Shown here: positions 30,731 to 52,671 of the stretch, piece after piece
Numbering within the stretch: position 1 is the stretch's first letter
How the letters are laid out: each line of letters starts with the position of its first letter
Origin: Microcella indica
Lineage (GTDB): Bacteria > Actinomycetota > Actinomycetes > Actinomycetales > Microbacteriaceae
Reading direction: 5' to 3'
DNA: 64,000 bases
Assembly (NCBI RefSeq): GCF_013414345.1
Contig: NZ_CP058670.1
Span: 2,294,001-2,358,000 of the forward strand
Notes under the pieces: model-generated
Told to the model about the DNA's origin: nothing
Seen by the model: only the letters and a program-made list of their open reading frames with translations
Databases searched by the model: none
Position numbers and translations under genes: made by a program

Positions 30731-31690
30731 CTACAGCCCCGAGTACGAGTGCAGCCCGTTGAAGTACAGGTTGACGATCGAGTAGTTGAAGAGCACGGCG
30801 CCGAAGCCGACGATCGCGAGCCACGCCGAGCGGTTGCCCCGCCAGCCCCGCGTCGCGCGCGCATGGATGTAGCCGGCGAAGAGCGTCCAGATGATGAAGG
30901 TCCAGACCTCCTTGGTGTCCCAGCCCCAGTACCGACCCCAGGCGCGCTCGGCCCAGATGGCGCCGGCGATGAGCGTGAATGTCCAGAACACGAAGCCGAC
31001 GACCGTCACCCGGTAGGCGAGCGATTCGAGAACGGATGCGCCGGGCAACGTGTCGAGGAAACGCAGGCCCGCACTCTCGCGGGCCTCACGCCGCGCCTGC
31101 ATCAGCTGCATGATGGAGAGCCCGGCACCGATCGCGAAGAATGCGGTAGCCAGGGCAGCGACGAGAACATGGATGACGAGCCACGCCGACTGCAGTGCGG
31201 GCGGAGTGGGGACAACATCCACGTAAAAGTTGACGGTGACGATCCCCAGCGAGAGCACGACGAACCCCGTGATGTAGGCGCCAAGATAGCGGAGGTCTTT
31301 CCACAGTTGCACGGCGACGAAAGTACCCATCATGACGACGGTGGCGGTGAGACCAAACTCGAACATGTTCGTCCACGGCACGCGCTCCGCAGCGAAGCCG
31401 CGCGTGAGGACGGCGGCAGCGTGCAGCACGAACCCGAGGATCGAGAGGGCGAGGCCCGCTCGCTCGTACCTGGTTGCTCCGCCCGACTGGAGCGGAGCAA
31501 CCGGACGTTCGAGGACGCTGGTCATGCTCGAGGAGTTCACAGCCGCCTGCTGCGCCCGCGCGGCTACCGGCTCGGCGCGCTGGGCAGACCTCTTGGCCAG
31601 ATCGAGCGTGAAGAGGATGAAGGCGACCGTGTAGACGCCCATGGCCGAATACACGGCGACGAGGGAGTAGGCAACGAGATTGTCCATCAC
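30731..31690 (-). CDS. ccsB: Cytochrome c biogenesis protein CcsB (CcsA family)
   Basis: This 319-residue integral membrane protein of System II cytochrome c maturation works with ResB to move heme across the membrane and attach it to apocytochrome. About eight helices are visible, with the heme-handling Trp-rich loop AERAWGRYWGWDTKEVW (about 248-263) and conserved His near residues 90, 174 and in YIHARATRG. The gene looks complete, with a GTG-ATG start 6 bases after TACGAT. Its usual partner resB is 17.3 kb away on the same strand, separated by the metal and redox island. Confidence 0.93.
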   Translation of the reverse strand: MMDNLVAYSLVAVYSAMGVYTVAFILFTLDLAKRSAQRAEPVAARAQQAAVNSSSMTSVLERPVAPLQSGGATRYERAGLALSILGFVLHAAAVLTRGFAAERVPWTNMFEFGLTATVVMMGTFVAVQLWKDLRYLGAYITGFVVLSLGIVTVNFYVDVVPTPPALQSAWLVIHVLVAALATAFFAIGAGLSIMQLMQARREARESAGLRFLDTLPGASVLESLAYRVTVVGFVFWTFTLIAGAIWAERAWGRYWGWDTKEVWTFIIWTLFAGYIHARATRGWRGNRSAWLAIVGFGAVLFNYSIVNLYFNGLHSYSGL

Positions 31691-31796
31691 AACCTCATCG
31701 TACGATGTGCAGCTGTGAGGCGCCGCCTCGCCGCTGCTCCTCGATCAGGGGCCTCCGGCCCATACATCTCCTAGCTGCCCTCTCTATGCTGAGGGC

Positions 31797-32519
31797 ATGC
31801 CCCGAAAAACTCGGCCCGTGAAGTCCGCCCGCCGCAAGAAGTCGCCCGTGTCGCCGCGCGCCGCACAACTCATCGCGGTCGGCGTGGCGCTCGCCCTCAT
31901 CGCGATCATCGTCGCGATCGTCGTTTCGAGTCTCAACCGGGCGGAGCCGCAAGCATTGCCGACAGTTGCGCCGAGCGACGCAGGCGAACTGTTGCGGGAG
32001 AACCCGCACCTGCTCTCGGACGTGGCGCCGCAGGACGCGGATGCTGTGCTCGTCGAGTTCGTCGACTTCCAATGCCCCGCCTGCTCTGCGGCGAGCCCCA
32101 TCGTTCAGCAAGTGGCCGACGAGTACGGCGACCGCCTCGCCGTCGTCGTGCGCAATCTACCGCTCACTAGCATTCACCCGCACGCTGTGGAAGCTGCGGT
32201 TGCCGCCGAGGCCGCTGCCGCACAAGGGGAATTCGCGGCGATGTACAAGGAGTTGTTTGCGACGCAGCAGGAGTGGAGTTCGGCTCGCGGCGATCAGTCC
32301 GACACGTTCCGTGACCTGGCCGAACAGCTCGGCCTTGACATGGACGAGTACGACCGCGTCGTCGACGACCCAGCGACGCGAGAGCGAATTGCACTCGACC
32401 AGGCAGACGCCTTCGCGCTCGGGGCAACAGGCACCCCGAGCTTTTTCCTCGACGGCGAACTCGTTCAGCTCAACTCCTTTGACGACCTGCGTGCGGCTGT
32501 CGATTCCGCGCTCCAGTAG
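31797..32519 (+). CDS. Membrane-anchored DsbA-family thiol oxidoreductase (copy 1)
   Basis: The 240-residue protein has a basic N-terminus, one transmembrane helix (about 24-45), then a thioredoxin-like domain with an inserted helical part. Active site C93-P-A-C96 lies in EFVDFQCPAC; the cis-Pro loop is GATGTPSFFLDG. The enzyme should introduce or reshuffle disulfides in exported proteins, with re-oxidation by a VKOR such as the one encoded at 38803. It is clearly paralogous to the second DsbA-like protein of the island. ATG lies 6 bases after TATGCT. Confidence 0.9.
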   Translation: MPRKTRPVKSARRKKSPVSPRAAQLIAVGVALALIAIIVAIVVSSLNRAEPQALPTVAPSDAGELLRENPHLLSDVAPQDADAVLVEFVDFQCPACSAASPIVQQVADEYGDRLAVVVRNLPLTSIHPHAVEAAVAAEAAAAQGEFAAMYKELFATQQEWSSARGDQSDTFRDLAEQLGLDMDEYDRVVDDPATRERIALDQADAFALGATGTPSFFLDGELVQLNSFDDLRAAVDSALQ

Positions 32520-32566
32520 AGCGCAATGAGTCGAAAGGCGTCGTCGCGACGCGCCTGACACATCGC

Positions 32567-34123
32567 TCACGCCCTTTCGCGCATCGCCATCGATTCGGCT
32601 CGTCGTCGCGCAGAGCCGTTGCTCGACCATGCCATGAGGAGGACGCCGACGCCGAGACCGGCCGCGGCGAGCTCGAACCATCCGCCGGCGGCTGCAGCAG
32701 GCGTCAGACCCTCGAAAAGCTCGACCTCCGCGACGATGCTCCCTGGTTCGTGCCAGGGAAGCTGAGCCAGTGTGCGCCCGTCAGGGCCGATGATGGCCGT
32801 GAGGCCGACGGTCGAAACATTGACCACCGTGCGCCCCAGCTCGATAGCGCGAGCCCGAGCAATGGCCAACTGTTGCGCGCTCTGGTCGGTGCGACCGAAG
32901 TCGGCATTGTTGGAGGCCGAGAAGATGACCTGCGCGCCCTCCAGGACCGAGTCTCGGAGCACGACATCGTCTGCAATGTCGAAGCAGATATTGATACCCG
33001 TGGGCACTCCATCGACGGTGAAGACGGCATCGGCCGACCCCGGCGTGTAGTCCCGCGCTACCAGGTCGATGAGATCGGGAGCAAACGGTCGCCAGAATTC
33101 ACGATCCGGCACGTACTCGCCGAAGGGAACGGGGTGACGCTTGTCGTAGAAGTCGACTGCTCCCGAGCCTTGCTGCCACAGAATCTGCGTGTTGTAGGTG
33201 AGTCCTCCACGCTCGGTGACAGCCCAGCCGATCAGCGGAGCGCCCGCTTGCCGCGATACCCGATCGAATGCGGCAGCGGTTCGTGCGTCGTCGAGCGGGC
33301 TGCGGTCCGTCGAGCCTTCCGGCCAGAGGATCACATCCAGATCGCGATCCAGCACGGGAAGCGTCGCCTCGTACTGCGCGGCCAAGAGCGCGCCGTCGTC
33401 GCGGTCATCGAAGTATCCCGCCGGTCCGTTCCCCTGAATCGCGGCGACGCGCATGCTGCCGGTGGACGACATCGGCCATGTCGGTAGGGCGACGAGCACC
33501 GCGGCCAGGAGCGCTGGTACCACCGCGTCACCCCAGCGGGCAGGCGAGAACGAGCGCAACATCTCGACGACGAGCGCCACGAGCGACACCATGAGGAAGC
33601 TCACTCCCGACAGCCCGACCCACGAGAGCAGATCGCTGAACGGGCTCTCCGACTGCGACATGGCGAGCCGTCCCCAGGAGAAACCGCCATACGGCCACGT
33701 GCTGGCAACCATCTCGCGAAGAACCCACAAACCGGCGATTGTGGGAGGCACCAGGTACCGCGCATGACGGTTCGCACCAGACGCCGGAAGCCATCTATAC
33801 GCGAGAGAGATCAGTAGACACCCGAGCGCGAACAGTGCCGCCTGCAGGGCGACGAGAGCCCCCATCGGTAATGGGCCGAGGAAGAGCGATGCCCATTGAA
33901 TCAACGCGAGGTAGAAGGACGCGCCCGCCACGAAGCCCACGAGCAGCGCGCTAGCCGCGCTCCGTCCGGTGAGGGCAACAAGCAGCAGCCCGACCCCGAA
34001 GAATGGTAGGGGCCACACACCACGATCCGGGAAGCCCGCATCCAGAAGGAGCCCAGCTCCTGCAGCAAGCGGAAGAGCGAGCCACAAGGGAATCGCTTCG
34101 CCGCGGTCATGGACACCCATCAT
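32567..34123 (-). CDS. lnt: Apolipoprotein N-acyltransferase
   Basis: The 518-residue membrane enzyme adds the third acyl chain to the N-terminal Cys of lipoproteins. N-terminal helices (about 12-215) precede a nitrilase-fold domain in which the catalytic triad is intact: E269 in ILWPEGST, K328 in FYDKRHPVPFGEY and C380 in GINICFDIAD. One C-terminal helix closes the protein. The ATG overlaps the stop of the small membrane gene by 4 bases. Its place in a metal and redox island suggests an accessory copy for island lipoproteins; whether the genome has another Lnt is not visible. Confidence 0.92.
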   Translation of the reverse strand: MMGVHDRGEAIPLWLALPLAAGAGLLLDAGFPDRGVWPLPFFGVGLLLVALTGRSAASALLVGFVAGASFYLALIQWASLFLGPLPMGALVALQAALFALGCLLISLAYRWLPASGANRHARYLVPPTIAGLWVLREMVASTWPYGGFSWGRLAMSQSESPFSDLLSWVGLSGVSFLMVSLVALVVEMLRSFSPARWGDAVVPALLAAVLVALPTWPMSSTGSMRVAAIQGNGPAGYFDDRDDGALLAAQYEATLPVLDRDLDVILWPEGSTDRSPLDDARTAAAFDRVSRQAGAPLIGWAVTERGGLTYNTQILWQQGSGAVDFYDKRHPVPFGEYVPDREFWRPFAPDLIDLVARDYTPGSADAVFTVDGVPTGINICFDIADDVVLRDSVLEGAQVIFSASNNADFGRTDQSAQQLAIARARAIELGRTVVNVSTVGLTAIIGPDGRTLAQLPWHEPGSIVAEVELFEGLTPAAAAGGWFELAAAGLGVGVLLMAWSSNGSARRRAESMAMRERA

Positions 34124-34503
34124 GGTGCGCCGCGGGTACCCTCCCCTGACGCCGCCCGAGGGGTGACTTTGAGCAGAACAGCGACGATGAGAAAGCCGAG
34201 GGCCGCGAGATACTGAGCGGCGAACCCCCAGAGACCGTCGAAAGCGAATGGGAAGACGGGGTTCCACAGCACGGCGATGACCAGCGGGATCGGCAACCAC
34301 CACCAGTGTCGAACCTCGACGGCGAACCACGCGATGATGAGCGCCAAGACCGCCAGCACGTACCGAATGGGCATGAACGTCTCGGTGCCGACGAGCGGCA
34401 GGCCTGCCAGCGCGACGGCGGCGGCGAGAACCCCAGGAGCGAGAGCCGGACGCCGGAACTCCCGTGGACCGGGATGATCGGTTCGCGTGCGCGGCCTGGT
34501 CAT
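34120..34503 (-). CDS. Small membrane protein, DUF6804-like
   Basis: The 127-residue protein has four hydrophobic helices after a basic N-terminus. The stretch PLVIAVLWNPVFPFAF resembles the NPIFP motif of DUF6804-type proteins. It overlaps both neighbours by 4 bases (CtaG upstream, Lnt downstream), so it is translated as part of a tight four-gene operon beginning at the second DsbA gene. No function is known; family assignment is tentative. Confidence 0.65.
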   Translation of the reverse strand: MTRPRTRTDHPGPREFRRPALAPGVLAAAVALAGLPLVGTETFMPIRYVLAVLALIIAWFAVEVRHWWWLPIPLVIAVLWNPVFPFAFDGLWGFAAQYLAALGFLIVAVLLKVTPRAASGEGTRGAP

Positions 34504-35498
34504 GTGGGGCTCTCCTCATTGTTCGATGATCGTTGCCTCGCCGTCGGGGCCTGGTCGTCGCGCTGTCGCAATCGATCGAGGTACGCGTTGTAGGCCTCGA
34601 GTTCAGGCGCACCGTACCGGTCTGCCTTGAGGTCGGCGGCGGCGGCTCGCGAGGTGTCATAGCGATGCCAACGGTGCAGGATGTAGAGCAGGATGAGAAC
34701 GGTGGGCGCCTCGCCGTATGACCACGCCAGGCCACCCGCGACGCCCTGGTCCGCCAAGGGATCGATGCCGAGTGCGGGTGGCGGGGTGGAGAAGTAGTCA
34801 ACGATGAGCGATGGGCTCATCATGATGAACACTCCGAAGAACGCATGCAGGGCCACCTCGGCCGCTAGATCGAGAGCTCTGGCCGGGTAGGACATTCGAA
34901 TGGGAAGTGGGTCGCTGCTCAGGATTGGAATCGTAAACAGTACGCCTGCGGCGAGGAAGCCGAGCTCGAGACTGACGTGCCCCCCGGGAGTCGAGAGAAT
35001 CGGGTCGGCGAAATCCGCGAGGTAAAGCCCATAGAAGGAGAAGAGGAAGAGGGGCACAGTCACGACGGGGTGCAGGAGCCATCTGCCGAGTCGGCTTCGG
35101 AGACCGCTCAATGCGAGGCGCAGGACGCCGCGCCCCCAGCCACGATGCGGCGTCGCCCGAAGCAAGAGCGTCCCCGGGGAGCCGAGCACCAGCAGGGGCG
35201 GGATCAGCATCATGAGGGTCAGCTGCTGGAACATGAACACGGAGAACATCACATAGCCGTAGCCTTCGACTCCCAATCCGGTGACGAGGACGATCGACAG
35301 GCACCCCAGCAAGAAGACGACAGTCCTGCCCACCGACCAGTGGCGCCCCGTCGCCCACAGTCGTGCAGCACCGACGACGTAGAGTGCGGCGAGCGACAGC
35401 CCGACGAGCGGCAGAATCGGTAGCGGCTGCGGATCGAACGCCAGAAATTGCTCGAGGCTCGGCGGAGCATCGGGCAAGTTCACCCAGTTTTCAGTCAC
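34500..35498 (-). CDS. ctaG: CtaG-type cytochrome c oxidase assembly protein
   Basis: The 332-residue protein has about seven to nine transmembrane helices and the caa3-type CtaG pattern: YVMFSVFMFQQLTLMMLIPPLLVLGSP, LFLFSFYGLYLADF, AEVALHAFFGVFIMM and a C-terminal soluble tail with DLKADRYGAPELEAYNAYL. The family supplies copper for oxidase CuA/CuB sites in Bacillus-type systems. It starts at GTG downstream of a DsbA gene and overlaps the small membrane gene. A second CtaG, fused to CopD, is encoded at 42388. Confidence 0.88.
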   Translation of the reverse strand: MTENWVNLPDAPPSLEQFLAFDPQPLPILPLVGLSLAALYVVGAARLWATGRHWSVGRTVVFLLGCLSIVLVTGLGVEGYGYVMFSVFMFQQLTLMMLIPPLLVLGSPGTLLLRATPHRGWGRGVLRLALSGLRSRLGRWLLHPVVTVPLFLFSFYGLYLADFADPILSTPGGHVSLELGFLAAGVLFTIPILSSDPLPIRMSYPARALDLAAEVALHAFFGVFIMMSPSLIVDYFSTPPPALGIDPLADQGVAGGLAWSYGEAPTVLILLYILHRWHRYDTSRAAAADLKADRYGAPELEAYNAYLDRLRQRDDQAPTARQRSSNNEESPT

Positions 35499-35590
35499 GT
35501 CTGATGTTCCTCGTGCGTTCGGCGGCTAGCGTCGCGGCTTGTTTTCCTCGGGTTTCCAGTAGCGCGGTCGACGTTTCGTCAGAGACGCTC

Positions 35591-36244
35591 TCATCCGTTG
35601 AGTTCCGCTTCGATGGCATTCTGGAGGTCGTCAAAGGAGTCCATTTGAACCATCTGGTCATTGACGAAAAAGGTAGGGGTCGAGGAGACTCCCAGCGAAA
35701 CTCCCTCGTCGTAGTCTGACTTGACTCGTTGAAGGGTGGCAGGGTCGGCGATCGCCGCGTCATAGTCGGCCATATCGAGTCCTATCTCCTCGGCAAACTG
35801 TCGGAAGAGCGGGGCACGTGACTCCTGCGCCTCACCCCACTCCGACTGAGTCTGGAACAGACGGCTGTACATCGCCTCCAGCTGCCCCTGTTGTGCGGCG
35901 GCTTCCACGGCGACTGCAGCGTTCCTCGAGTTGTAGTGGCTGGGAAGCGGAAAATACCGAATCGCGAAGGTCACCTCTCCGGCATATGCGGCGCGGAGGC
36001 CCTCCACGACCGGGTAGAAGGCACCACAGGCCTCGCACTCGAAGTCGAGGAACTCGACTACCGTCACCGCGTCTTCTCCCGCGTCTTGCAAGATGTGGCT
36101 GTCCTCAGACAGCGCAGGGGCGGGGGTCGGCGCCGCAACAGGGCCTGGCTGCTGGTTCTGCGCTATGGCCACGAGAATGAACGCGACCACCGCGATCACG
36201 ATCACGCCCCCCGAGATGATGGCGACTCTGACGTTTGAGTTCAT
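35591..36244 (-). CDS. Membrane-anchored DsbA-family thiol oxidoreductase (copy 2)
   Basis: The 217-residue protein has one N-terminal transmembrane helix (about 7-28) and a DsbA-like domain. The active site is C70-E-A-C73 in EFLDFECEACGAF, a less common dipeptide than the CPAC of copy 1, and the cis-Pro loop is SSTPTFFVND. Alignment of the C-terminal halves with copy 1 (LGLDM, DPAT, SFDDL) shows common ancestry. A strong AGAGGAG site precedes the ATG. It heads an operon with ctaG, which suggests it may act on a copper- or oxidase-assembly thiol. Confidence 0.9.
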   Translation of the reverse strand: MNSNVRVAIISGGVIVIAVVAFILVAIAQNQQPGPVAAPTPAPALSEDSHILQDAGEDAVTVVEFLDFECEACGAFYPVVEGLRAAYAGEVTFAIRYFPLPSHYNSRNAAVAVEAAAQQGQLEAMYSRLFQTQSEWGEAQESRAPLFRQFAEEIGLDMADYDAAIADPATLQRVKSDYDEGVSLGVSSTPTFFVNDQMVQMDSFDDLQNAIEAELNG

Positions 36245-36370
36245 ATTTGTTCTCCTCTAAAGATGGTGGAGCACGTGTGCGGGCGCACACGGCATTTGCC
36301 GTCGCGGCAATGAGATGAGAGTGCGATGGCGCGGGCTCAGCGACCGCTGAAGCTCAGACGGGGCCGGATC

Positions 36371-36832
36371 CTACGTGCGATTCACGCACAGAGCCGCGAG
36401 TTCGGGTCGGAGCCAGCCGATGATCCTCCGAGGCGCGGACGATGCGGTGGGCCCAAGGGCCCTGTCACCGGTCGATGATAAGCACAGTACGACTCGTCCG
36501 AACCACGCGCGAACGCCCAGGATGAACAGGCCCGCCAGGCAACCGACAATCACGGTCATGCCACCTGCCACGAGATACGCGGCTTCGTTTTCGTCAGACG
36601 CGTCGGCCGTGTCGACATGCGCCCCGAGCTCGGTCAAGAGCAGCGCCTGACCACTGTCGGATGACAAGGATCGCTCGACAGGGCCATGAGTCGCTTGCGA
36701 GTGATGGGCGACAAGGATCGCCGCGGCGATGAGGAGGAGTGTGACGATCGCCATTCCTACTTTCGCGGTTGTGGCGTGATGCCGAGGCGCAGCGTCGACT
36801 CCGCAATCTCGGCGCCACGAGACCTGCGTCAT
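36371..36832 (-). CDS. Hypothetical membrane protein, possibly DUF6153
   Basis: The 153-residue protein has two hydrophobic helices (about residues 25-42 and 90-110) separated by a polar external loop with HHSQATHGP, and a C-terminal tail ending ELAALCVNRT. The overall layout, with the Leu-Cys-Val-x-Arg-Thr end, resembles the small actinobacterial DUF6153 proteins, but I am not certain. The ATG comes one base after the stop of the ArsR gene, so it belongs to the CDF-arsR operon and may take part in zinc or cobalt handling. Confidence 0.6.
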   Translation of the reverse strand: MTQVSWRRDCGVDAAPRHHATTAKVGMAIVTLLLIAAAILVAHHSQATHGPVERSLSSDSGQALLLTELGAHVDTADASDENEAAYLVAGGMTVIVGCLAGLFILGVRAWFGRVVLCLSSTGDRALGPTASSAPRRIIGWLRPELAALCVNRT

Positions 36833-36833
36833 G

Positions 36834-37292
36834 CTAGAGGTCACCACTCTCGATCGTCCGACGCGCGCCGTCGGATCGCGCACCGAGCTGGTCGTCGTGC
36901 TCATCCTCGGGGTGCAGGAGCACTAGGTGTCCCACGTGCTCCAGCCCCAACTCGAGGAGCACGCGTACGTGCGAATCGGCCAGGGCGTAGTACGCGTGGC
37001 GACCCTCTCGCTTGACTCCGACCACGCGGTGGGCGCGGAGCAGGCGGAGGGCATGCGACACCGAGGATTCGCTCGCGTCTACGACGCGAGCGATATCGTG
37101 CACGGCCATGGGGCCCGGCAACAGGGCGATCAGTATGCGTACCCGCCCGGGATCACCGAGAAGGCGGAATATGTCGGCCAAGTCGGAAACATGCGGCGTG
37201 TGTGGCATCTTTGCCCGCACCTGCTCAGCGTGATCGGAATGATCGGATCCGGGCGGCACCTCGCGGTGCCGCCTCGAGCCGATGTCCTCCAT
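36834..37292 (-). CDS. ArsR/SmtB-family metal sensor, CzrA type
   Basis: The 152-residue winged-helix repressor has DIFRLLGDPGRVRILIALL, then VDASESSVSHALRLLRAHRVV (recognition helix) and REGRHAYYAL. The last helix carries D-x-H then H-x-x-H in DSHVRVLLELGLEHVGH, with exactly the spacing (positions 1, 3, 14, 17) of the CzrA/SmtB alpha-5 zinc site; no ArsR-type CVC motif is present. Extra His at both ends could add affinity. It should repress the CDF exporter gene upstream until Zn(II) or Co(II) binds. Confidence 0.92.
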   Translation of the reverse strand: MEDIGSRRHREVPPGSDHSDHAEQVRAKMPHTPHVSDLADIFRLLGDPGRVRILIALLPGPMAVHDIARVVDASESSVSHALRLLRAHRVVGVKREGRHAYYALADSHVRVLLELGLEHVGHLVLLHPEDEHDDQLGARSDGARRTIESGDL

Positions 37293-37321
37293 GGTTCTGA
37301 TGATACCCCGCACTCCTTCGC

Positions 37322-38221: not shown

Positions 38222-38246
38222 TAGGCGGCCGAACTACCGGTTTTTT

Positions 38247-38260
38247 TGATCATATGAACA
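38247..38260. promoter_or_regulatory. Candidate ArsR/SmtB operator before the CDF gene
   Basis: TGATCATATGAACA is a 14-bp imperfect palindrome centred on TCATATGA, close to SmtB/CzrA-type operators that contain TGAACA half-sites. It lies just upstream of the CDF start beside a seven-base T-run (38241-38247). The natural ligand is the CzrA-type repressor encoded downstream. No footprint data are implied. Confidence 0.5.
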
Positions 38261-39411: not shown

Positions 39412-39500
39412 CAGCCCGGTACTGTCCGCCTGGTCGCACTGCGCGACTCGTGTGATTCGGCCTGGGTTTAGTGCCGTCCTCTGATCCAGGATGGAACCTG

Positions 39501-40765: not shown

Positions 40766-40787
40766 GCACGAAACCCAGGCCGAATCA

Positions 40788-42184: not shown

Positions 42185-42209
42185 GTCGAATCCTCTTCCC
42201 AGTTTATCT

Positions 42210-42257: not shown

Positions 42258-42345
42258 TCCGGCATGCTGGTGGCGCACGGGGAGGGTAACGTGAAGACAA
42301 CTGACTGGCTGCGCCGTGAGTCCAGCTCGACGTGCAGCACACTAG

Positions 42346-42364
42346 CGCGCCCGGCCCGGGCGCG
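42346..42364 (+). promoter_or_regulatory. GC-rich 19-base hairpin in the copper-operon leader
   Basis: CGCGCCCGG-C-CCGGGCGCG is a perfect odd-centred palindrome 23 bases before the CopD-CtaG start, flanked by TGACT and AGTCA (about 42302 and 42366) that extend the fold. It could act as a transcription attenuator or an mRNA structure that limits translation. The 200 bases upstream hold no gene. Confidence 0.45.
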
Positions 42365-42387
42365 GAGTCAGTGTTGGTGGTGCCGCG

Positions 42388-44427: not shown

Positions 44428-46670
44428 CGACGCCGATCAACCAGGAGACCTCGATCGTGCACCTCAACATCGAGGGGATGACATGTGCTGCCTGCGCAGG
44501 TCGGGTGGAGAGGGCGCTCTCGCGACTCGACGGAGCCGTCGCCACGGTGAACTATGCGACTGAGCGAGCAACCGTCACGGGGATCGAGCGGGCACGGATC
44601 GCCGACGCAACAGAGGCGGTGGCGAAGGCAGGGTATCGGGCCCACCTTCGCACAGAGGCCGACGACGACTGGACCAGGCGAAGCACACTGGCGCGTCTCA
44701 CGTCGTTGCGCCGCCGCCTTGCGGTATCGGCGTTGCTCACCGTGCCGCTCATGGACCTGAGCATTACGCTTGCGCTCGTCCCGAACCTGCGGTTCCCTTT
44801 CTGGGAACTGGTGTGCATCCTGCTCGCCGTTCCGATCGTGACGTGGGCGGCGTGGCCATTCCACCGAGCTACGGTGCGGAATCTCCGTCATGGATCGATG
44901 AGCATGGACACGCTCGTCACCCTCGGGATAGTGGTCTCGTTCGGCTGGGCGGTCGCGACCATCATTTTCGGCCCGGACGACGGCGGCTACTGGGTGGGGT
45001 TCGGTCCAACTCCGCCGGGAGCCGACTCGATCTATCTCGATGTCGCGGCGGGCCTCACGACCTTCCAGCTTGCCGGTCGATACTTCGAAACACGCTCGCG
45101 CCGCAAGGCCGGGGAAGTCGTCGATGCGCTCGGTGCCCTGGTTCCCATGACGGTGCGACGGATCCACGGAAGCGACGAAGAGCTCGTCTCCGCCGCCGAT
45201 TTGCGCGTTGGTGACACCTTCGCCGTGCATCCAGGCGAGTCGATCGCCGCGGACGGCGTCATCAAGGAAGGGCGCGCGGCCATCGACGAGAGCGTCCTGA
45301 CTGGTGAGCCGCTACCGCGGGAAGCGGTCGTGGGCGACACCGTCATGGGCGGGGCCGTCAGTGCCGACGGATACCTTCTCATTGAGGCGAAGGCTGTGGG
45401 CGAGCACACCCGACTTGCGCAAATGTCAGCACTCGCGGAGCGAGCGCAAGAGAGCAAAGCTCGAATTCAAACGCTGGTCGACCGAGTCGTCACCTGGTTC
45501 GTGCCATCGGCGATCGGCCTAGCCGTACTCGTCACCGTGGCGTGGATCGTCGCGGGGGCCGCACTGACGCAGGCAGTCGGAATCGGCATTGCTGTGCTCA
45601 TCATCGCCTGCCCCTGTGCGCTTGGACTCGCCACACCGACGGCGCTCCTCATGGGTGTGGGCCGTGGTGCCCACATGGGCATCCTGATCAAAGGCATCAG
45701 CGCACTCGAGGCGTCCGGTCGTGTGGATACCGTCGTTCTCGACAAGACGGGCACGGTGACCACCGGTCGCATGCAGGTGACTGAGTTTCAGACCAAGGGA
45801 GCGGTGAATCGCGAAGATGCGCTCCGCTGGGCCGGCGCCCTGGAGTCCCGCTCCGAACACCCTGCTGCCCGCGCGATATGCGCATTCGTCCTCTCGAGAG
45901 TCTCGCCATTGCCCCGCGTGGACGACGAGCAGATCCGGCCGGGCCTCGGCGTGGCCGGGCACATCGAAGGTGCAACCACGGTGATCGGCAGCCCCCGTCT
46001 CGCCGAGGAGTTCGGCGTCGCCTTCACGGAGGACGACCGGCGCACGATCGCAGTGATCCGCGAACGCGGGGACACGGCAATTGTCCTCGGCCGTGCCGAC
46101 CGGGTAGTCGCATTTCTCGCGCTGGGCGACGAGCTCAAGGACTCCGCCGTTGCCGCCATCGCAAGCCTGCGCGATCTCGGACTGAGAACCATCCTCCTGA
46201 GCGGCGACCACGAGACGACGGTTCGACGTGTTGCGGCCGCGGTCGGCATCGACGACGTGCGAGCCGGAGTGATGCCCGAGGCGAAAGCAGAGGTGATCAA
46301 CGCTCTGAAGAGGGCAGGTCGTCACGTCGCCATGGTGGGCGACGGGATTAATGACGCACCAGCACTCGCGACAGCCCATCTCGGTCTGGCAGTCGCCGAC
46401 GGGAGCGACATCGCGATTCGTTCTGCCGACATTGTCCTCATTCGAGAGGACCTCCGAGTGGTCGCCGATGCTGTTCGGCTTGCCCGTCGTACTCTGGGTA
46501 CTATTCGGACAAATCTCTTCTGGGCTTTCGGCTACAACATGGCGGCGATTCCCCTCGCCGCTGCTGGACTTCTCAATCCACTCATCGCCGCAGCTGCCAT
46601 GGCGCTCTCGTCAGTGCTCGTCGTCGCGAACAGCATGCGCCTGCGCAACTTCGTGAGCATCAGCGAATAA
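44424..46670 (+). CDS. copA: Copper-translocating P-type ATPase CopA
   Basis: This 748-residue Cu(I)-exporting P1B-1 ATPase has one N-terminal metal-binding domain (GMTCAACAGRVE, C21 and C24), CPC at 396-398 (IACPCALGLATPTA), phosphorylated D440 in LDKTGTVTTG, HP motif SEHPAARA, MVGDGINDAPALATA, and the Cu(I) signature helices FGYNMAAIPLAA and MALSSVLVVANS. All key residues are intact. It overlaps the CopD-CtaG gene, forming a copper operon probably under the BlaI-type repressor. Confidence 0.97.
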   Translation: MTTPINQETSIVHLNIEGMTCAACAGRVERALSRLDGAVATVNYATERATVTGIERARIADATEAVAKAGYRAHLRTEADDDWTRRSTLARLTSLRRRLAVSALLTVPLMDLSITLALVPNLRFPFWELVCILLAVPIVTWAAWPFHRATVRNLRHGSMSMDTLVTLGIVVSFGWAVATIIFGPDDGGYWVGFGPTPPGADSIYLDVAAGLTTFQLAGRYFETRSRRKAGEVVDALGALVPMTVRRIHGSDEELVSAADLRVGDTFAVHPGESIAADGVIKEGRAAIDESVLTGEPLPREAVVGDTVMGGAVSADGYLLIEAKAVGEHTRLAQMSALAERAQESKARIQTLVDRVVTWFVPSAIGLAVLVTVAWIVAGAALTQAVGIGIAVLIIACPCALGLATPTALLMGVGRGAHMGILIKGISALEASGRVDTVVLDKTGTVTTGRMQVTEFQTKGAVNREDALRWAGALESRSEHPAARAICAFVLSRVSPLPRVDDEQIRPGLGVAGHIEGATTVIGSPRLAEEFGVAFTEDDRRTIAVIRERGDTAIVLGRADRVVAFLALGDELKDSAVAAIASLRDLGLRTILLSGDHETTVRRVAAAVGIDDVRAGVMPEAKAEVINALKRAGRHVAMVGDGINDAPALATAHLGLAVADGSDIAIRSADIVLIREDLRVVADAVRLARRTLGTIRTNLFWAFGYNMAAIPLAAAGLLNPLIAAAAMALSSVLVVANSMRLRNFVSISE

Positions 46671-46688
46671 CACGAGATCCAGCTCGCC

Positions 46689-47420
46689 TCAGCCAACGTA
46701 GGCCGAGATGAGGGCGAAAAGGGCGAAACCCGCCGTCAGGAAGAAGGGTTCGAGCCGACTGGATCGCTCTTGGTGAGCCTGCGTGGTCATCTCTTCCACC
46801 GCCATGCTTGTGAGCAGGCCGCCCGTGAATGCGAGCACCGACAAGGTGATGATCTCGGGGGCGCTCCTCAGCGCGAGGTATCCGATTGTGGCACCGACGA
46901 GCACGGGGATGGCGAAACTGAAGGAGAGGATCAGCCGGGTGCGGCGCCCGACTCCTGAGCGTCTCAGCGTGGCGACAGCCGCGAATCCTTCCGGGATGTC
47001 GGCAGGGACTTGACCCAGAGCGAGAATGAGGCCGAGGCCCGGGTTGATGACCGTGCCGGTGCCGATCATGACTCCGTCGCTGAAGAGATCGATCGAGACT
47101 CCTGCGAAGATGGCAGAAGGACCCGTGTCCACCTCTCCGGAACCGAACCGTCGTTTGACGTAGGCGAGGCTCCTCTCGATTCCGAGGAAGCCGAGGCCAC
47201 CCAGGGCGAACGCAGCAATGGTAATCCACGGCGCCGACGCACGTAGCGCTTCCCGCATGAGCTCCAAGCCCACCACCGCGAGCACGATTCCCGTGGCGAA
47301 GTGCAAGGCGAGACTCAAGCGTCGACCGGAGACTCCGACGACCTCTGCGGCGAGGCCGCCCAGCATAGTTCCCACGGCGGGGAGCGCCGCAAGACCGAGG
47401 ACGAGCAGGAAGTCGTTCAT
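46689..47420 (-). CDS. ZIP-family divalent metal transporter
   Basis: This 243-residue membrane protein of eight helices shows ZIP features: LALHFATGIVLAVVGLELM in helix 2, ALGQVPADIPEGFAAVATLRRSG in helix 4 (the family HNxPEG site reads ADIPEG here) and AVEEMTTQAHQE near the end. It would import or export Zn(II) or a related metal. The substitution of the usual His-Asn before PEG may change selectivity. It is convergent with copA, and 130 non-coding bases separate it from the Nramp gene. Confidence 0.85.
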   Translation of the reverse strand: MNDFLLVLGLAALPAVGTMLGGLAAEVVGVSGRRLSLALHFATGIVLAVVGLELMREALRASAPWITIAAFALGGLGFLGIERSLAYVKRRFGSGEVDTGPSAIFAGVSIDLFSDGVMIGTGTVINPGLGLILALGQVPADIPEGFAAVATLRRSGVGRRTRLILSFSFAIPVLVGATIGYLALRSAPEIITLSVLAFTGGLLTSMAVEEMTTQAHQERSSRLEPFFLTAGFALFALISAYVG

Positions 47421-47549
47421 GCACCAAAGTGTGCCGAAGGTTCCGGCCCTTTTCCACCGACAGCGTCGAGCGATGTAGGGAAATGTCCAGTCAGCGACGC
47501 GGTCGTCGCCTCAACCGAGAATTACCTGAGTACGCGTGTATCTGCGACC

Positions 47550-48911
47550 TCATACCCCGGCGAACACGAGCCATAGCAGCACACCGTTCAGAGCGATGAG
47601 GAGCACGGATGCCACGATGCCAGCAGCAGTCGTGAGCCAGTGGTTCCGCCAGGGGCCGAGAAGAGCGGAATTGGCGGTGAGGGCGACAAGCGGGATGAGC
47701 GCAAAGGGAATGCCGAACGAGAGCACCACCTGGCTCAGGACGAGCGACTGAGTGGGGTCGAAGCCCAGCCACAATATGGCGATGGCCGGCGCCAGCGTGA
47801 CGATTCTTCTGAGAACGAGCGGTACGCGTATGTGCAGCAGTCCACTCATGATCTCCGCACCGGCGTAGGCGCCCACTGCAGTCGACGCTAGCCCTGATGC
47901 GAGCAGTCCCACAGCGAAGAGCGTCGCAATCATCGGCCCGAGCGCGACACCGAGCGCGGCATGCGCGCCCTCGAGGCTGTCTGTGCCCGCAACACCGGGC
48001 AGCGTGGCCGCTGCAAGAAGCATGATGCACAGGTTGACCGCGCCAGCGATGACCATCGCCGCGGAGACGTCCCATCTCGTGGCCCTGAGGAGCACATTCG
48101 CCGGAATCGAGGTCGACGTACCCGGTAGCGGTTCCGTGTGTTCGATCTCACGCCGACTGCCTGCGGCACCACGCGCGGTCCAGGTCGAGAACCCACCGTC
48201 CTGATCCCGCCGCTGCGAGACAAAACGATCCCGACTCAGGGACGAGTGGGCGTAGATGGCATGCGGCATGATCGTCGCCCCCAGTATCGATGTGGCGAGC
48301 AAGACCGAATTGGTGTCCGCGAATCGCGGCTCAAGGCCAGAAAGAGCCGAGGTGATGTCGGGTGGCGCCACCACCACTCCTGCGGTGAATCCCACAGCAA
48401 TGATCGCCAGCAAGCCTACGATCACGAACTCGAACGGGCGCGGGCCGCGTCGAGACTGCAGGATAAGGAGCACGATTGAGACTGCACCGGTGATGAGACC
48501 TCCCCAGACGAGCGGAATCCCAAAAAGCAGATTGAGCGCGACCGCGCCCCCGATCACTTCTGCGAGATCGGTCGCCATCGCAACGAGTTCCGCCTGCGCC
48601 CAGTACGCGCGGCGCGACCACCGATGGCGAATGCGCCTTCCCAGCACGTCGGGAAGGCTTCGACCCGTCACGATGCCGAGCTTCGCGGAGAGGTACTGGA
48701 TGAGCCAGGCCATGAGGTTCCCGAGCACGACCACCCACACGAGCAGGTAGCCGTACTGCGCACCAGCCGTCATGTTGCTCGCGACATTCCCAGGATCGAG
48801 GTAGGCGACTCCGGCCACGAACGCCGGCCCCATCAGAAATACCAACCTCTGCGCGGGCCGCCTGCGCACCGGGTTGTGGGGCCGGTTGCCGCGACGTCGT
48901 GCGCTCCTCAC
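47550..48911 (-). CDS. mntH: Nramp-family Mn(II)/divalent metal transporter
   Basis: This 453-residue proton-coupled metal importer carries the metal-binding motifs DPGN (residues 39-42, in AYLDPGNVASNMTAG) and MPHAIYAHSSLSRD in helix 6. Eleven helices are expected. Between helices 6 and 7 is a hydrophilic insert of about 50 residues (starting RDRFVSQRRDQDGG), longer than in typical MntH proteins of about 410 residues. GTG start; no good ribosome site. A TTTCGG-N4-CCGAAA operator lies 63 bases upstream beside a TAGAAT -10 box. Confidence 0.92.
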   Translation of the reverse strand: MRSARRRGNRPHNPVRRRPAQRLVFLMGPAFVAGVAYLDPGNVASNMTAGAQYGYLLVWVVVLGNLMAWLIQYLSAKLGIVTGRSLPDVLGRRIRHRWSRRAYWAQAELVAMATDLAEVIGGAVALNLLFGIPLVWGGLITGAVSIVLLILQSRRGPRPFEFVIVGLLAIIAVGFTAGVVVAPPDITSALSGLEPRFADTNSVLLATSILGATIMPHAIYAHSSLSRDRFVSQRRDQDGGFSTWTARGAAGSRREIEHTEPLPGTSTSIPANVLLRATRWDVSAAMVIAGAVNLCIMLLAAATLPGVAGTDSLEGAHAALGVALGPMIATLFAVGLLASGLASTAVGAYAGAEIMSGLLHIRVPLVLRRIVTLAPAIAILWLGFDPTQSLVLSQVVLSFGIPFALIPLVALTANSALLGPWRNHWLTTAAGIVASVLLIALNGVLLWLVFAGV

Positions 48912-48973
48912 GGCTCACCCGTGTGTCGCGACATCGGAGCAATGCCGGAGGCGTCATGAACCAGTGTCCAGGT

Positions 48974-48989
48974 TTTCGGCATACCGAAA
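48974..48989 (-). promoter_or_regulatory. Candidate MntR-type operator at the Nramp promoter
   Basis: TTTCGG-CATA-CCGAAA is a perfect 6-bp inverted repeat with a 4-base spacer, immediately downstream of TAGAAT (minus strand, 48990-48995), a good -10 box. A metal-loaded DtxR/MntR-type repressor binding here would shut off the transporter in manganese-replete cells. No MntR gene is in the window. Confidence 0.6.
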
Positions 48990-49052
48990 TTCTACGCCCT
49001 GAAGCACCTCGTCACCACGGGTCTGCCGTCTACCGTGCAAGACCGGTTGCGG

Positions 49053-50672
49053 TCAGGAGCGGCCCGCACCACCGCCTCGTCGGTCGCGTCGCGCGACTCC
49101 CGATTCACCCCCATGCGCATGAGCGAACTCGGCGACGGCGCGCTCCAGCTGCGGGTCCTCCCCCCGAGCGAGGCCCGCATACTGAAGACGCACTGCGTCG
49201 CCGTCAGCCGTCGCGACCACCCACAAGCGTCGGCGGGGGACGAACAAGCTCACGAGCAAACCGAGGACAACGAGAATGGTGGAGACGAGCACTCCGACTT
49301 GGGTGGGGTCGTGGTGGACTTCAATGCTGGCGAATCGCGGCAGGCTCGTGAATTCGACGCTGCCGAGCTCGTCCGGCAACTCGGCAGTCTGCCCCAGACC
49401 CAGTACGATGGGAGGCGCATCGGTGTCCCCACCCGTGATCTGCGTGAGGCCGTCGGTGTTGAGCGCGTAGACATTTCGAGGAACGCCTTCGTTCAAACCA
49501 AGATCGCCGACGTAGGCGTTGAAGGTGAGAACTGGTCGATCCGGTTCCGGGTACACGGAACTCAAGGCGCCGCTCTCGAGCTGGACTGCCGACGGGTAGA
49601 AGAATCCGCGCATACCGAGCTGCTGGTCGAGTCCGTCCGGCACCTTGACAATTCCCAGGCTCGTGAGATTCGAGTCTTGGGGAAGAAACGGCACCGGCTG
49701 ACTGAAGACGGGAGAACCGTCCGGGGCGTAGACGGTGATCCACGGCGCGAACCCGTTGCCCAACAAGTATGCAGTCGCCCCATCGATATCGATCGGCTCG
49801 TTCACCTTGATCTGCCGGGAGTCCGTCTCCCCATCCTCGACGACCGTCACATAGGCAGTGAAGTCCAGCGCCTGAGGAAACCCTGTCGTGGGATCAGGCT
49901 GATACTCGGGCACGAACTCCTCTAGGCGGATTGAGTAGGGGTCCAAGCTCGATTCGTCAAAAAAGCGTCCGGGCGAGAACGAGTCAAAGCTCGTCAGCTG
50001 ATTGGTGAACGCCTGGCCTTCGACGATGACCCTCTGACCGTTGTAGCCGAATCCGCCCGCGAACCCCACCGTCGCCAGAACGCCGACGAGCGCCGCATGG
50101 AAGACGAGATTGCCGGTCTCGCGCCAGTAGCCACGCTCGGCGGAGAGAGAGTCCCCGTACCGCTCGACTCTGTAGCGCTGACGTCGCAGGAGAGCGTGCG
50201 CTGACTCGAGCTCGGTCTCGACCGTGGACCGCGGGGCCACCCGTTCGGTGAAGCCAACCATACGGCTCAACCGTCCTGGCGTCCCTGGCGGTCGAGAACG
50301 CAAGGCACGCCAATGGTGGCGTGCCCGCGGGATGATGCAGCCGATCAACGAGATGAACAGCAGCAGATAGATCGCCGAGAACCACACCGAGGTATAGGTG
50401 TCAAAGACTTGCAACGCGTCCAGAATCGCGAATGCTTCCGGGTTGGATCTCTCGAATTGCACGACACCGTTCGGGTCTGCAGAGCGCTGCGGAACGAGCG
50501 ATCCGGGGATCGCAGCGACGGAGAGCATGAGCAGGAGGAGGAGCGCAGTTCGCATGCTCGTGAGTTGTCGCCAGGCGAAGCGCATCCAGCCGCGCACCCC
50601 GAGCGCGGGCTGCGCGACACTCGTGCTCGGTGGTCTACTGTCGTAATGGTCAGAGGGGCGTGACGGTTCCAT
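49053..50672 (-). CDS. resB: Cytochrome c biogenesis protein ResB
   Basis: The 539-residue System II component has three N-terminal helices (about 38-60, 92-115, 190-212) including TSMRTALLLLLMLSVAAIPGSLVPQR, a large external domain (about 215-475) with GFGYNGQRVIVEGQAF, and a final helix (VSTILVVLGLLVSLFVPRRRLWV). With CcsB it forms the heme-attachment complex for c-type cytochromes. It overlaps ccdA by 23 bases. The expected next gene, ccsB, is displaced by the island, which begins just after its stop. Confidence 0.93.
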   Translation of the reverse strand: MEPSRPSDHYDSRPPSTSVAQPALGVRGWMRFAWRQLTSMRTALLLLLMLSVAAIPGSLVPQRSADPNGVVQFERSNPEAFAILDALQVFDTYTSVWFSAIYLLLFISLIGCIIPRARHHWRALRSRPPGTPGRLSRMVGFTERVAPRSTVETELESAHALLRRQRYRVERYGDSLSAERGYWRETGNLVFHAALVGVLATVGFAGGFGYNGQRVIVEGQAFTNQLTSFDSFSPGRFFDESSLDPYSIRLEEFVPEYQPDPTTGFPQALDFTAYVTVVEDGETDSRQIKVNEPIDIDGATAYLLGNGFAPWITVYAPDGSPVFSQPVPFLPQDSNLTSLGIVKVPDGLDQQLGMRGFFYPSAVQLESGALSSVYPEPDRPVLTFNAYVGDLGLNEGVPRNVYALNTDGLTQITGGDTDAPPIVLGLGQTAELPDELGSVEFTSLPRFASIEVHHDPTQVGVLVSTILVVLGLLVSLFVPRRRLWVVATADGDAVRLQYAGLARGEDPQLERAVAEFAHAHGGESGVARRDRRGGGAGRS

Positions 50673-51390
50673 TGATCACCACCCCCAGGTTCGAGACGAA
50701 TACCTGCCACAGGCCCGTCACCATGGCGAGACCGATGACGATGAGAATTCCGCCGCCGATGACGTTGATGACACGAATGTGACGCTTGAGCCACGCTGTG
50801 GCACGCGTCATCCAGCCGAAGCCCATAGCGACGAGCAAGAACGGAATGCCGAGGCCCAAGCAGTACACGAATCCGATGAGCGCCGCTCGGCCAAGCCCGC
50901 CCTCGGTGAGTGCGAGAGAATAGACGGCCGCAAGCGTCGGGCCCATGCACGGCGCCCAGCCGAGCCCGAAGACGATGCCGAGCAACGGCGCCCCGCCCAG
51001 CCCTGTCGCGATCTGCCAGCGCGGCCGCACCGTGCGCTGTAGGAAAGTCACCTGGCCGATGAAGACGAAGCCCATGACGATCACGACCGCGCCCGCAAGC
51101 CGGGTAATGAGGTCGAGTTGCGTCTGCAGCACGAGCCCAGCGGTCGCGAAAAGCAGAGAGAACCCCACGAATACGACCGTGAACCCGAGCACGAAGAACG
51201 AAGCACCGAGCACCACGCGACCCCGGTCGCTCGACAGTTGGTCGGCCCGGGAGAAGCCGGTCACGTACGCAAGATAGCCGGGCACGAGCGGCAACACGCA
51301 CGGCGACACGAAAGCGATGACACCCGCGAGTAGCGCGATGGGCAGGGCAACCAAGAGCGAGCCGCTGAACACCAGTTCGCCGACGCTCAT
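50650..51390 (-). CDS. ccdA: Cytochrome c biogenesis protein CcdA
   Basis: The 246-residue membrane protein of six helices moves electrons from cytoplasmic thioredoxin to the external TlpA. Redox cysteines lie in GVIAFVSPCVLPLVPGYLAY (first helix) and GWAPCMGPTLAAV (fourth helix). It lies 4 bases downstream of tlpA and overlaps resB, so the cluster is one operon. It is distinct from the CcdA-like protein encoded at 22631, which pairs with another thioredoxin. Confidence 0.95.
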   Translation of the reverse strand: MSVGELVFSGSLLVALPIALLAGVIAFVSPCVLPLVPGYLAYVTGFSRADQLSSDRGRVVLGASFFVLGFTVVFVGFSLLFATAGLVLQTQLDLITRLAGAVVIVMGFVFIGQVTFLQRTVRPRWQIATGLGGAPLLGIVFGLGWAPCMGPTLAAVYSLALTEGGLGRAALIGFVYCLGLGIPFLLVAMGFGWMTRATAWLKRHIRVINVIGGGILIVIGLAMVTGLWQVFVSNLGVVINGTVTPL

Positions 51391-51394
51391 ACGC

Positions 51395-52042
51395 TCACTC
51401 CGACTCTGCGAGGGTGTCGGCGATCATCGCGCGCAGAGTCGAGGGTTCGCTCAGCAGGCCCGTGATGCGCGCGGCCACACGGCCCTCGCGGTCGAGCACG
51501 AGCGTCGTCGGCACGGCATTGGGCGCGACCTGGCCGGCGAAGGCGAGGCGTGTCGAGCCATCGTTGGCATCGAGGATCGAGGGGTAAGTGACCCCGAACT
51601 CATCGGCGAAGGCGAGCGCCGTGGGGGCCTGGTCGTAAATGTTGACGCCGAGGAAGTCGACGCCGTCAGGCTGGAACTGCTGCCAGATCGCCTCGAGGTC
51701 AGCCGCTTCAGCACGGCACGGTGGACAAGCCGCGTACCAGAAGTTGACGACGAGAACGTCGCCACGGTAGTCATTGCTCGAGACAGTTTCGCCCGTCTCC
51801 GTGAGGCCTGAGAACGTGATCGGTTGACCGCGCTCGTCGGGCGCGATCACGGTGTATGAGCCGTCGCCCGAGATGTATCCCTGCCCGCTTCCTGAGCGGT
51901 ACTGTTCCGCGAGCGGGTCGGCGGCCGAGCATGCCGTGACGGCGAGCGCTACGGCGGCAAGCATCGCCGCGCTGACACGGCGCCAGCGCGCGAGACGGGT
52001 CGGCGCCGCAGGGCGGCGAACTGCGGGTGTTGGGGTACTCAC
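51395..52042 (-). CDS. TlpA/ResA-type thiol-disulfide lipoprotein
   Basis: The 215-residue exported thioredoxin-like protein keeps apocytochrome c cysteines reduced for heme attachment. A signal peptide ends at lipobox AVTAC (Cys about 38); the active site is C106-P-P-C109 in FWYAACPPCRAEAADL, with cis-Pro in NAVPTTLVLD. It overlaps the upstream phosphatase gene by 4 bases and precedes ccdA by 4 bases. This order (phosphatase, TlpA, CcdA, ResB) matches that of Mycobacterium tuberculosis Rv0525-Rv0528. Confidence 0.94.
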   Translation of the reverse strand: MSTPTPAVRRPAAPTRLARWRRVSAAMLAAVALAVTACSAADPLAEQYRSGSGQGYISGDGSYTVIAPDERGQPITFSGLTETGETVSSNDYRGDVLVVNFWYAACPPCRAEAADLEAIWQQFQPDGVDFLGVNIYDQAPTALAFADEFGVTYPSILDANDGSTRLAFAGQVAPNAVPTTLVLDREGRVAARITGLLSEPSTLRAMIADTLAESE

Positions 52043-52671
52043 ACGGCTCCTAGATCGGTGGCATTCTCCAGCAATTCTGCGCCCGGTTCCTGATAGCCGA
52101 TCTCAGTGAAGGCGCCGCCCTGCCAGGCGAAGGAGGTGATGCTCGAGAGCGCGCAGCGCCGCTTGCGCGGGTCGTGCGCGAGCGGCTCGCCGGCGGCGGC
52201 GCGATGCACCATCCAGATCGGTAGCTGGTGGCTCACCATGACGGCCTCGCCCGAGTCGGTTCTCTCGTGGGCATCGGTCATGGCGGCGAGCATCCGCGTC
52301 GCTATCGAGGTGAAGGGCTCACCCCAGCTGGGCGTGCGGGGATTGCGCAGCAGGTGCCAGTGGCGCGGGTCGGCGAGCGTGCGCCGGTTCAGGCGCTTGC
52401 CCTCGAAGCGGTTGGTCGGCTCGATGAGGCGCTCCTCGGTGTGGATGTCGAGACCGAAGGCCTCCGCCCACGGCGCCGCCGACTCCTGCACGCGCTGCAG
52501 AGGCGAGGCATACAGCGCGGTGACGGGATGCCCGGCCAGTGCCCCCACGGCCGCCGCGGCCATGCGCTGCCCGAGCTCGCTGAGCCGGAACCCCGGCAGT
52601 CGCCCGTAGAGCACGCGCGTGGGGTTGTGGACCTCGCCGTGCCGCACGAGGTGGATGACGTCGGCAGGCAT
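52039..52671 (-). CDS. Histidine phosphatase (phosphoglycerate-mutase-like) protein
   Basis: The 210-residue cytoplasmic enzyme has the phospho-histidine motif LVRHGEVHNP near the N-terminus, YASPLQRVQESA, and the second catalytic His in MVSHQLPIWMVH. It is a broad histidine-phosphatase-superfamily member rather than a glycolytic mutase. The ATG lies 7 bases after TACACT, which would start the cytochrome c maturation operon. Its role in that operon is not known, although the neighbourhood is conserved in Actinobacteria. Confidence 0.9.
   Translation of the reverse strand: MPADVIHLVRHGEVHNPTRVLYGRLPGFRLSELGQRMAAAAVGALAGHPVTALYASPLQRVQESAAPWAEAFGLDIHTEERLIEPTNRFEGKRLNRRTLADPRHWHLLRNPRTPSWGEPFTSIATRMLAAMTDAHERTDSGEAVMVSHQLPIWMVHRAAAGEPLAHDPRKRRCALSSITSFAWQGGAFTEIGYQEPGAELLENATDLGAV

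Follow-up and report, generated by a model that had tools for sequence, protein, structure and literature searches.

The DNA analysed here is a 64,000-nt stretch of the Microcella indica genome (contig NZ_CP058670.1, positions 2,294,001 to 2,358,000), hereafter the window, which carries a System II cytochrome c maturation (Ccs) operon split between resB (49053-50672, minus strand) and ccsB (30731-31690, minus strand), 17,366 nt apart. Gene identities were assigned by scanning the open reading frames (ORFs) of the window with Pfam and NCBIfam profiles. ResB and CcsB scored above the curated cut-offs of their families (PF05140, 419.9 bits against 24.6; TIGR03144 equivalog, 234.5 against 187.6), and a search of the whole genome, a single contig of 2,585,348 bases, found these as its sole resB and sole ccsB matches. 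The original prediction, made from the sequence letters, described an intact phosphatase-tlpA-ccdA-resB series and an intact ccsB, with resB and ccsB far apart; the profile scans confirmed this, and the genes it named all proved real. Both parts are thus as intact as in the known actinobacterial System II operon, but in the window a stretch of metal and redox genes sets ccsB 17.4 kb apart from the rest. The operon and its left flank consist of the following features.

28774-29886, plus strand: menC-like gene (MR_MLE_C / Enolase_like_N), left native flank, which adjoins ccsB in many relatives
30731-31690, minus strand: ccsB (TIGR03144 over cut-off; PF01578), probably starting at the conserved ATG at 31687
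31697-31702, minus strand: TACGAT, a -10-like box of ccsB that predates the insertion
49053-50672, minus strand: resB (PF05140)
50650-51390, minus strand: ccdA (CcdA-type DsbD_TM, PF02683)
51395-52042, minus strand: tlpA-like gene (resA/ccsX; PF08534/PF00578)
52039-52671, minus strand: histidine phosphatase gene (phos; His_Phos_1, PF00300), first gene of the operon and right native edge

The ccsB gene stands as it was predicted except for its GTG start, the conserved start being the ATG one codon later.

The order of the loci that we examined across the family is aspS-phos-tlpA-ccdA-resB, then after a gap ccsB, often followed by menC, and resB usually adjoins ccsB. This bears out the claim that DNA was inserted into a conserved operon. 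The split is no assembly artefact, since Microcella pacifica has the same arrangement inside one contig. We then compared the junctions of the operon with one another. A gap longer than 300 nt was seen at none of 82 phos-tlpA and none of 87 tlpA-ccdA junctions, at 1 of 89 ccdA-resB junctions (1/258 pooled for the three) and at 16 of 86 resB-ccsB junctions. This count left out 12 duplicate rows, three accessory clusters, genome G025 and the loci with ccsB beyond the retrieved stretch, two prophage loci included, and many of the 74 named loci are from Curtobacterium (handles starting with G denote genomes and those starting with L denote loci). Junction inserts of 15.3 kb in G069 and of 6 kb in G098 and G159 apparently hold regulator, ABC-transporter and metabolic genes (these inserts and that of G076 were judged from reading frames, not from family scans). 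Two Curtobacterium loci, L094 (L150) and L122 (L151), carry about 15 and 17 kb of phage genes at the same junction: a tyrosine integrase (PF00589) in both, a tape measure gene in L094, and portal, major head and major tail genes in L122. Repeats of 13 bp stand at the resB end and ahead of ccsB, GGAGTTAGGATGC in one prophage and GGAGTTAGGATTC in the other, and GGAGTTAGGAT, which contains a TTAGGAT box, lies ahead of ccsB in most of the insert-free Curtobacterium loci read out. The 13-bp repeat, which resembles a phage attachment site (att), includes this TTAGGAT box. As the att-like repeat holds the ccsB box, prophage insertion appears to rebuild the ccsB promoter.

To the box ahead of ccsB the original prediction had given a role that the comparison does not support, namely that ccsB acquired its own TACGAT as a result of the insertion. 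A TANNNT hexamer was found exactly 15 nt ahead of the ccsB ATG in 23 of 24 distinct Microcella upstreams (two accessory clusters included), in split and adjacent loci alike, and the idea that the insertion created the box was rejected. Among 36 distinct upstreams from other genera it stood at -24 in 12, at -15 in seven, at -21 in six and at -27 in three, offsets that depend on the aligned start. With a limit of 40 nt to the start, TANNNT preceded ccsB in 63 of 65 distinct upstreams (shuffled upstreams: mean 15.6, maximum 24), as it did the unit-head genes phos (69/71) and aspS (64/64), and it preceded resB in 0 of 83 and ccdA in 0 of 82. These counts cover loci whose match starts within the first residues of the protein, and the shuffles, here and for the end repeats below, keep single-base composition only. 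TANNNT has been described as the -10 motif found in M. tuberculosis (PMC3898074), and such a box about 12 bp ahead of the start as a signal of leaderless transcription in bacteria, frequent in Actinobacteria (PMC3160421). We infer that ccsB is driven by the box and forms a second transcription unit of the so-called operon even where it adjoins resB, and that its expression would survive the split.

The reading that we prefer, to which we give as a whole account a probability of about 0.7, is that the resB-ccsB junction permits insertions on account of the conserved promoter-like box that ccsB has of its own. According to this reading ccsB looks like a long-standing unit with a leaderless-type box rather than a dependent member of the operon, and DNA could land ahead of it without cutting it off from its promoter.

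The states of the junction in 26 Microcella genomes were defined from the positions of resB, ccsB and dsbA1. Adjacent genes, which the original prediction had proposed to look for in relatives, were indeed found, with resB and ccsB less than 90 nt apart in 11 genomes (G002, G005, G007, G011, G013, G014, G015, G019, G022, G023 and G024). In ten (G004, G006, G008, G010, G012, G016, G017, G020, G021 and G025) they lie 0.82-0.92 kb apart with an opposite-strand dsbA1 between them, and five have more or other DNA: 1.2 kb in G009, 2.2 kb with dsbA1 in G018, 5.6 kb in G003, 16.4 kb in M. pacifica and 17.4 kb in the window. A dsbA gene thus occupies the gap in 13 of the 26 genomes, the window included, and the condition under which the original prediction would have dropped the insertion, a ccsB ancestrally separate in this clade, is in that sense half true. 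In a tree, the 12 DsbA1 proteins tested from the gap make up a single clade apart from three dsbA2-type rows (100/100), and in nine relatives read out dsbA1 and resB are convergent and close together. In the small inserts of G009 and G018 one ORF each was scanned, without a Pfam match. Strain X2B (G003, grouped with Microcella) has an independent 5.6-kb insert with CtaG, M23, DUF4383, ArsR and cation diffusion facilitator (CDF) genes.

In G022 the native ccs operon was apparently replaced by an accessory-type one. At the native place (L048 and L134, C1:1.80-1.83 Mb) stands an accessory-type resB-ccsB pair. It is followed by cdf, ctaG, dsbA and VKOR together with an extra copy of menC and matches of IS3 type; beside the native menC is left a match of 73 aa to the C-terminus of ccsB. 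The GC content is about 0.59-0.68 across some 30 kb, except in the extra menC, and the ResB of this genome groups with the accessory copies (96/92).

The window gap was predicted as one 17.3-kb island. The gap is real, but it consists of two layers, an older dsbA1, which had been missed, and a 16.5-kb block between the stops of dsbA1 and resB. VKOR, the IS3 element and an M56 remnant were likewise absent from the original gene list. The metal, disulfide and oxidase-assembly genes foreseen there are borne out by profile matches, and the contents of the gap are, in order, as follows.

31797-32519, plus strand: dsbA1 (DsbA-like), older insertion divergent from ccsB, with a homologue in the same gap of the genomes counted above; TATGCT at 31785-31790 lies 6 nt ahead of its ATG
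about 32520-49052, strand not applicable: inserted block, dsbA1 stop to resB stop
32567-34801 (ORF limits), minus strand: lnt, apolipoprotein N-acyltransferase (TIGR00546 over cut-off; PF20154, PF00795), with its domains at 249-695 aa of the ORF and therefore a true start further in than the ORF limit
34500-35498, minus strand: ctaG1, stand-alone Caa3_CtaG (PF09678, 229.7 bits)
35591-36244, minus strand: dsbA2 (PF13462 / PF01323)
36834-37685, minus strand: ArsR-type regulator (PF01022), domain at 178-222 aa of the ORF
37322-38221, minus strand: CDF transporter (PF01545 and PF16916)
38803-39411, plus strand: VKOR (PF07884, 113.6 bits)
39453-40787, plus strand: IS3 element with ends TGATTCGGCCTGGGTTT..., orfA 39471-39815 and orfB 39812-40765 (NF033516, 259.5 bits, cut-off 160)
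about 40711-41097, minus strand: M56-like metallopeptidase gene reduced by IS3 to an N-terminal remnant (the frame is longer in M. pacifica)
41094-41534, minus strand: CopY/BlaI-type repressor (PF03965, 45.5 bits, over cut-off)
41576-42340, minus strand: DUF5134 membrane protein (PF17197)
42388-44427, plus strand: CtaG-domain membrane protein (PF09678, 261.6 bits at 392-636 aa)
44424-46670, plus strand: copper-type P1B ATPase (TIGR01511, 487.1 bits, cut-off 397)
46689-47420, minus strand: ZIP transporter (PF02535, 47.6 bits, cut-off 35.1)
47550-48911, minus strand: NRAMP / MntH-like transporter (PF01566; NF001923, 441.8, cut-off 430)
48974-48989, strand not applicable: perfect palindrome TTTCGGCATACCGAAA ahead of nramp, single copy in the window

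The N-terminal half of the CtaG-domain protein is presumably CopD-like, although no CopD match was obtained, and we take the palindrome to resemble a DtxR/MntR-type operator. The P1B copper ATPase and the nearby PF03965 regulator, both over their cut-offs, identify a copper/metal cassette, and the cargo may give metal tolerance. Other VKOR and CtaG genes are present elsewhere in the genome, so the copies of the block are extra and the cargo is accessory. The VKOR-dsbA2-ctaG cassette, whole or partial, is also found in Microcella G003, G007, G009, G013, G016, G021 and G022. For the copper ATPase the best full-length relative in the genus besides that of M. pacifica is 48% identical among the matches listed, which also include two partial matches at contig ends that cover less than half of the protein at 50% and 60% identity; the copper module probably came from outside the genus, with a closer relative possible in G010. 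The IS3 insertion removed most of the M56 gene beside the CopY/BlaI repressor, and this regulator pair may no longer be responsive.

The low-GC anomaly is broader than the gap: the GC content is 0.643 over 30731-52042, from tlpA to ccsB, versus 0.726 and 0.712 in the flanks, and 0.642 over 32520-49052. The block has the marks of an island, being found at this place in two of the 26 Microcella genomes (the window and M. pacifica) with a shifted GC content. The GC content at third codon positions (GC3) is.80 in tlpA,.83 in ccdA,.75 in resB,.78 in dsbA1 and.86 in ccsB of the window, all lower than those of phos (.89), menC (.91) and aspS (.93); native resB has.82-.96 in the other Microcella tabulated, except G011, G015 and G022 (.68-.71).

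Comparison with M. pacifica KN1116 (G001), whose resB is identical to that of the window, was made in 500-nt bins. Most flank bins are 90-98% identical, some being lower, down to 79%, and the left half of the block is mostly 90-97% identical, with 77-86% at 34.0-35.5 kb. This left half diverges like the flanks, and the block is therefore older than the split of the two species. Near-identical tracts were found at 41.0-52.0 kb (98.6-100%), at 30.5-32.0 kb (99.6-100%) and from 59.5 kb to the end of the window (100%). The first and the last of these point to recent exchange between the two species, which in the first concerned the copper/NRAMP/resB half. At the matching M. pacifica point IS3 is missing and a longer M56-like frame with an HExxH motif stands instead. 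The aspS and menC trees join the two split species (99/96 and 100/99), many inner forks being weak, and the TlpA tree is mostly unresolved.

Taken with these comparisons, the permissive junction would have been filled in steps. A dsbA gene was the first to enter the Microcella junction, divergent from ccsB, and 16.5 kb of metal and extracytoplasmic-redox cassettes then came to lie between dsbA1 and resB, at their convergent ends, as the comparison of genomes shows for both steps, the second before the split of the window species and M. pacifica. Later, IS3 hit the M56 gene in the window lineage, and the copper/NRAMP/resB half was swapped almost unchanged with M. pacifica by recombination.

Several observations weigh against a permissive junction so filled. 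The zeros at resB and ccdA lie below the shuffle means (9.6 and 7.5), so that the motif is rarer there than by chance; these genes start inside or right after coding sequence, and part of the contrast with ccsB may thus reflect coding constraint. The genomes are related, so neither the junction counts nor the box counts are independent events. Across the family the split is an uncommon state, in Microcella a frequent one (15/26), and permissiveness alone therefore does not explain the Microcella figure. In a separate family sample (120 genomes from 76 genera, tallied by eye in two tables) nine genomes had no ccsB within 1 kb of any resB: five with gaps of 3-17 kb (G000, G069, G076, G098 and G159), two with the genes far apart (G094 and G138) and two with them on different contigs (G030 and G131). 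The dsbA-in-gap state needs three changes on the aspS tree, three on the menC tree and four on the ccsB tree, so that a single gain needs later losses or replacements, of which one, that in G022, is visible; the G018 DsbA1 sits on a long branch and may have arrived separately. Finally, the low GC3 of tlpA, resB and dsbA1 and the grouping of the window CcdA with G004 alone (99/96), which its ResB does not share, suggest that the ccs genes themselves were partly exchanged. As a side observation, the only ccsB match of G094 and of G138 lies hundreds of kb from resB.

Cassettes like those of the block occur on actinobacterial plasmids and also in accessory islands. ResB relatives were found on 96 of 72,556 plasmid records, all ResB matches being less than 60% identical, and the six plasmid ResB regions read out, chosen from the 20 rows listed, all have metal or copper genes. 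The Micrococcales plasmid clusters compared (Microbacterium sediminis L157, Citricoccus L153/L160, Paenarthrobacter L159, Leifsonia L152, L155, Cryobacterium L156) have between them the same kinds of genes as the block, namely CtaG, Lnt or LspA/Lgt, DsbA-like, VKOR, ArsR/CDF, NRAMP/ZIP, P-type ATPase and M56 with CopY/BlaI and DUF5134; in Leifsonia L152 the stretch read has no ccs genes. On the M. sediminis plasmid, in a region with copper genes, the order is tlpA-ccdA-resB-ctaG-lnt-M23-M23-ccsB, so that resB and ccsB are likewise separated. In contrast to these, the window copy is chromosomal, of Microcella type and at the native locus. In Arthrobacter, a plasmid CYT module bearing CcdA and DsbA has been described, and apart from it a copper module (PMC6305408). 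Microcella accessory islands (M. pacifica C61; G021 2.66-2.70 Mb; G022 1.80-1.83 Mb) share the low GC content and, in G021 and G022, a VKOR-dsbA2-ctaG cassette near the ccs cluster, but resB and ccsB are adjacent there and the ccs genes are an extra or replacing copy. The plasmids of the collection were rejected as a direct source: when 32520-52040 was used in a near search, 19 records came up, of which the best covered 4% (an IS3), and 41000-48990 in a distant search matched parts of modules in 440 records, with 28% as the best coverage. The accessory copies of M. pacifica and G021 were rejected by the ResB tree as donors of the window ResB. Our searches of the open-access PMC set listed no paper that deals with a split ccs operon or with ccs-metal islands in Microbacteriaceae.

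Another explanation is that metal, disulfide and oxidase-assembly genes are kept beside the ccs genes for their joint work, as a supra-operon, and that the site is favoured for its function, to which we give somewhat less than even odds. The independent X2B insert, the M. sediminis plasmid with ctaG-lnt-M23-M23 between resB and ccsB, the overlapping resB-dsbA-lnt-ccsB of second ccs clusters in two other genera (L162 and L165, in G069 and G082) and the metal or copper genes of the plasmid ResB regions all argue for it, and in B. subtilis CtaG, CcdA, ResA/B/C, LspA and Lgt are described as involved in caa3 oxidase biosynthesis (PMC9145763). Against it stand the apparently unrelated cargo of G069, G098 and G159, the Curtobacterium prophages, and the CtaG and VKOR genes elsewhere in the genome, which mark the cargo as accessory. 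The original prediction of a selected, functionally related cargo thus holds as to relatedness, and selection is possible, with cargo elsewhere partly unrelated or phage-borne. On balance we see a permissive site that in Microcella draws mainly on a pool of metal/redox cassettes, with selection of related cargo possible.

A live alternative for part of the history, which we hold only tentatively, is replacement of the whole block, in which the native tlpA-ccdA-resB-dsbA1-ccsB was swapped by homologous recombination for a lower-GC Microcella version already carrying the cargo. This would fit the low GC content from tlpA to ccsB, the GC3 of its five ccs and dsbA1 genes (.75-.86) beside those of phos and menC, the CcdA grouping, the near-identical M. 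pacifica tracts at 30.5-32.0 kb and 41.0-52.0 kb, and the precedent of G022, with its accessory-type pair at the native place and its ccsB remnant. However, the window ResB stands apart from the accessory copies, at the base of a group with other dsbA1 genomes (97/92), dsbA1 is of native type in its native place, and native tlpA and dsbA1 have an equally low GC3 in some relatives (.80/.80 in G021). No intact donor was seen, and under replacement the insertion would simply have happened in a different Microcella.

Targeted integration by a mobile element recognising the resB-ccsB junction, as Curtobacterium prophages with their integrase and 13-bp repeats seem to do, is very improbable here, since the block has no integrase besides the IS3 transposase among the ORFs scanned, its end repeats (longest 10 nt direct, at 32507/49139, and 9 nt inverted; shuffle means 9.0 and 8.9, 95% at 11) are within chance, it stands between dsbA1 and resB, at a distance from the ccsB box with which the phage repeats overlap, and its IS3 is internal and missing at that M. 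pacifica point. The targeting proposed in the original prediction is accordingly not supported. The Curtobacterium prophages share the junction and the size range, about 15 and 17 kb, but bring phage genes, a tyrosine integrase and att-like repeats, none of which was found in the Microcella block. An integrative element (integrative and conjugative element, prophage or integrase island) was rejected, as the ORFs scanned hold no integrase besides the IS3 transposase and the ends no repeats beyond chance, and a composite transposon was rejected as there is one internal IS3, absent at the M. pacifica point, and no insertion sequence at the ends among the ORFs scanned.

A bolder form of the permissive-site account, which we put forward as possible though somewhat doubtful, is that the Microbacteriaceae resB-ccsB junction is a docking site around an ancestral leaderless ccsB promoter. 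Prophages would take this promoter into their att core and rebuild it, metal/redox cassettes would dock upstream of it, and a metal/oxidase-assembly supercluster would thus build up within a core operon while ccsB stayed expressed.

These comparisons suggest that in a core bioenergetic pathway a conserved so-called operon acts as two units, and this would account for its being open to splitting and refilling. They also point to a phage att site lying on a promoter that insertion would regenerate. Within one genus they offer a series, from adjacent genes through dsbA only and small inserts to a 16.5-kb block and a replacement, in which the addition of cargo to operons may be studied.

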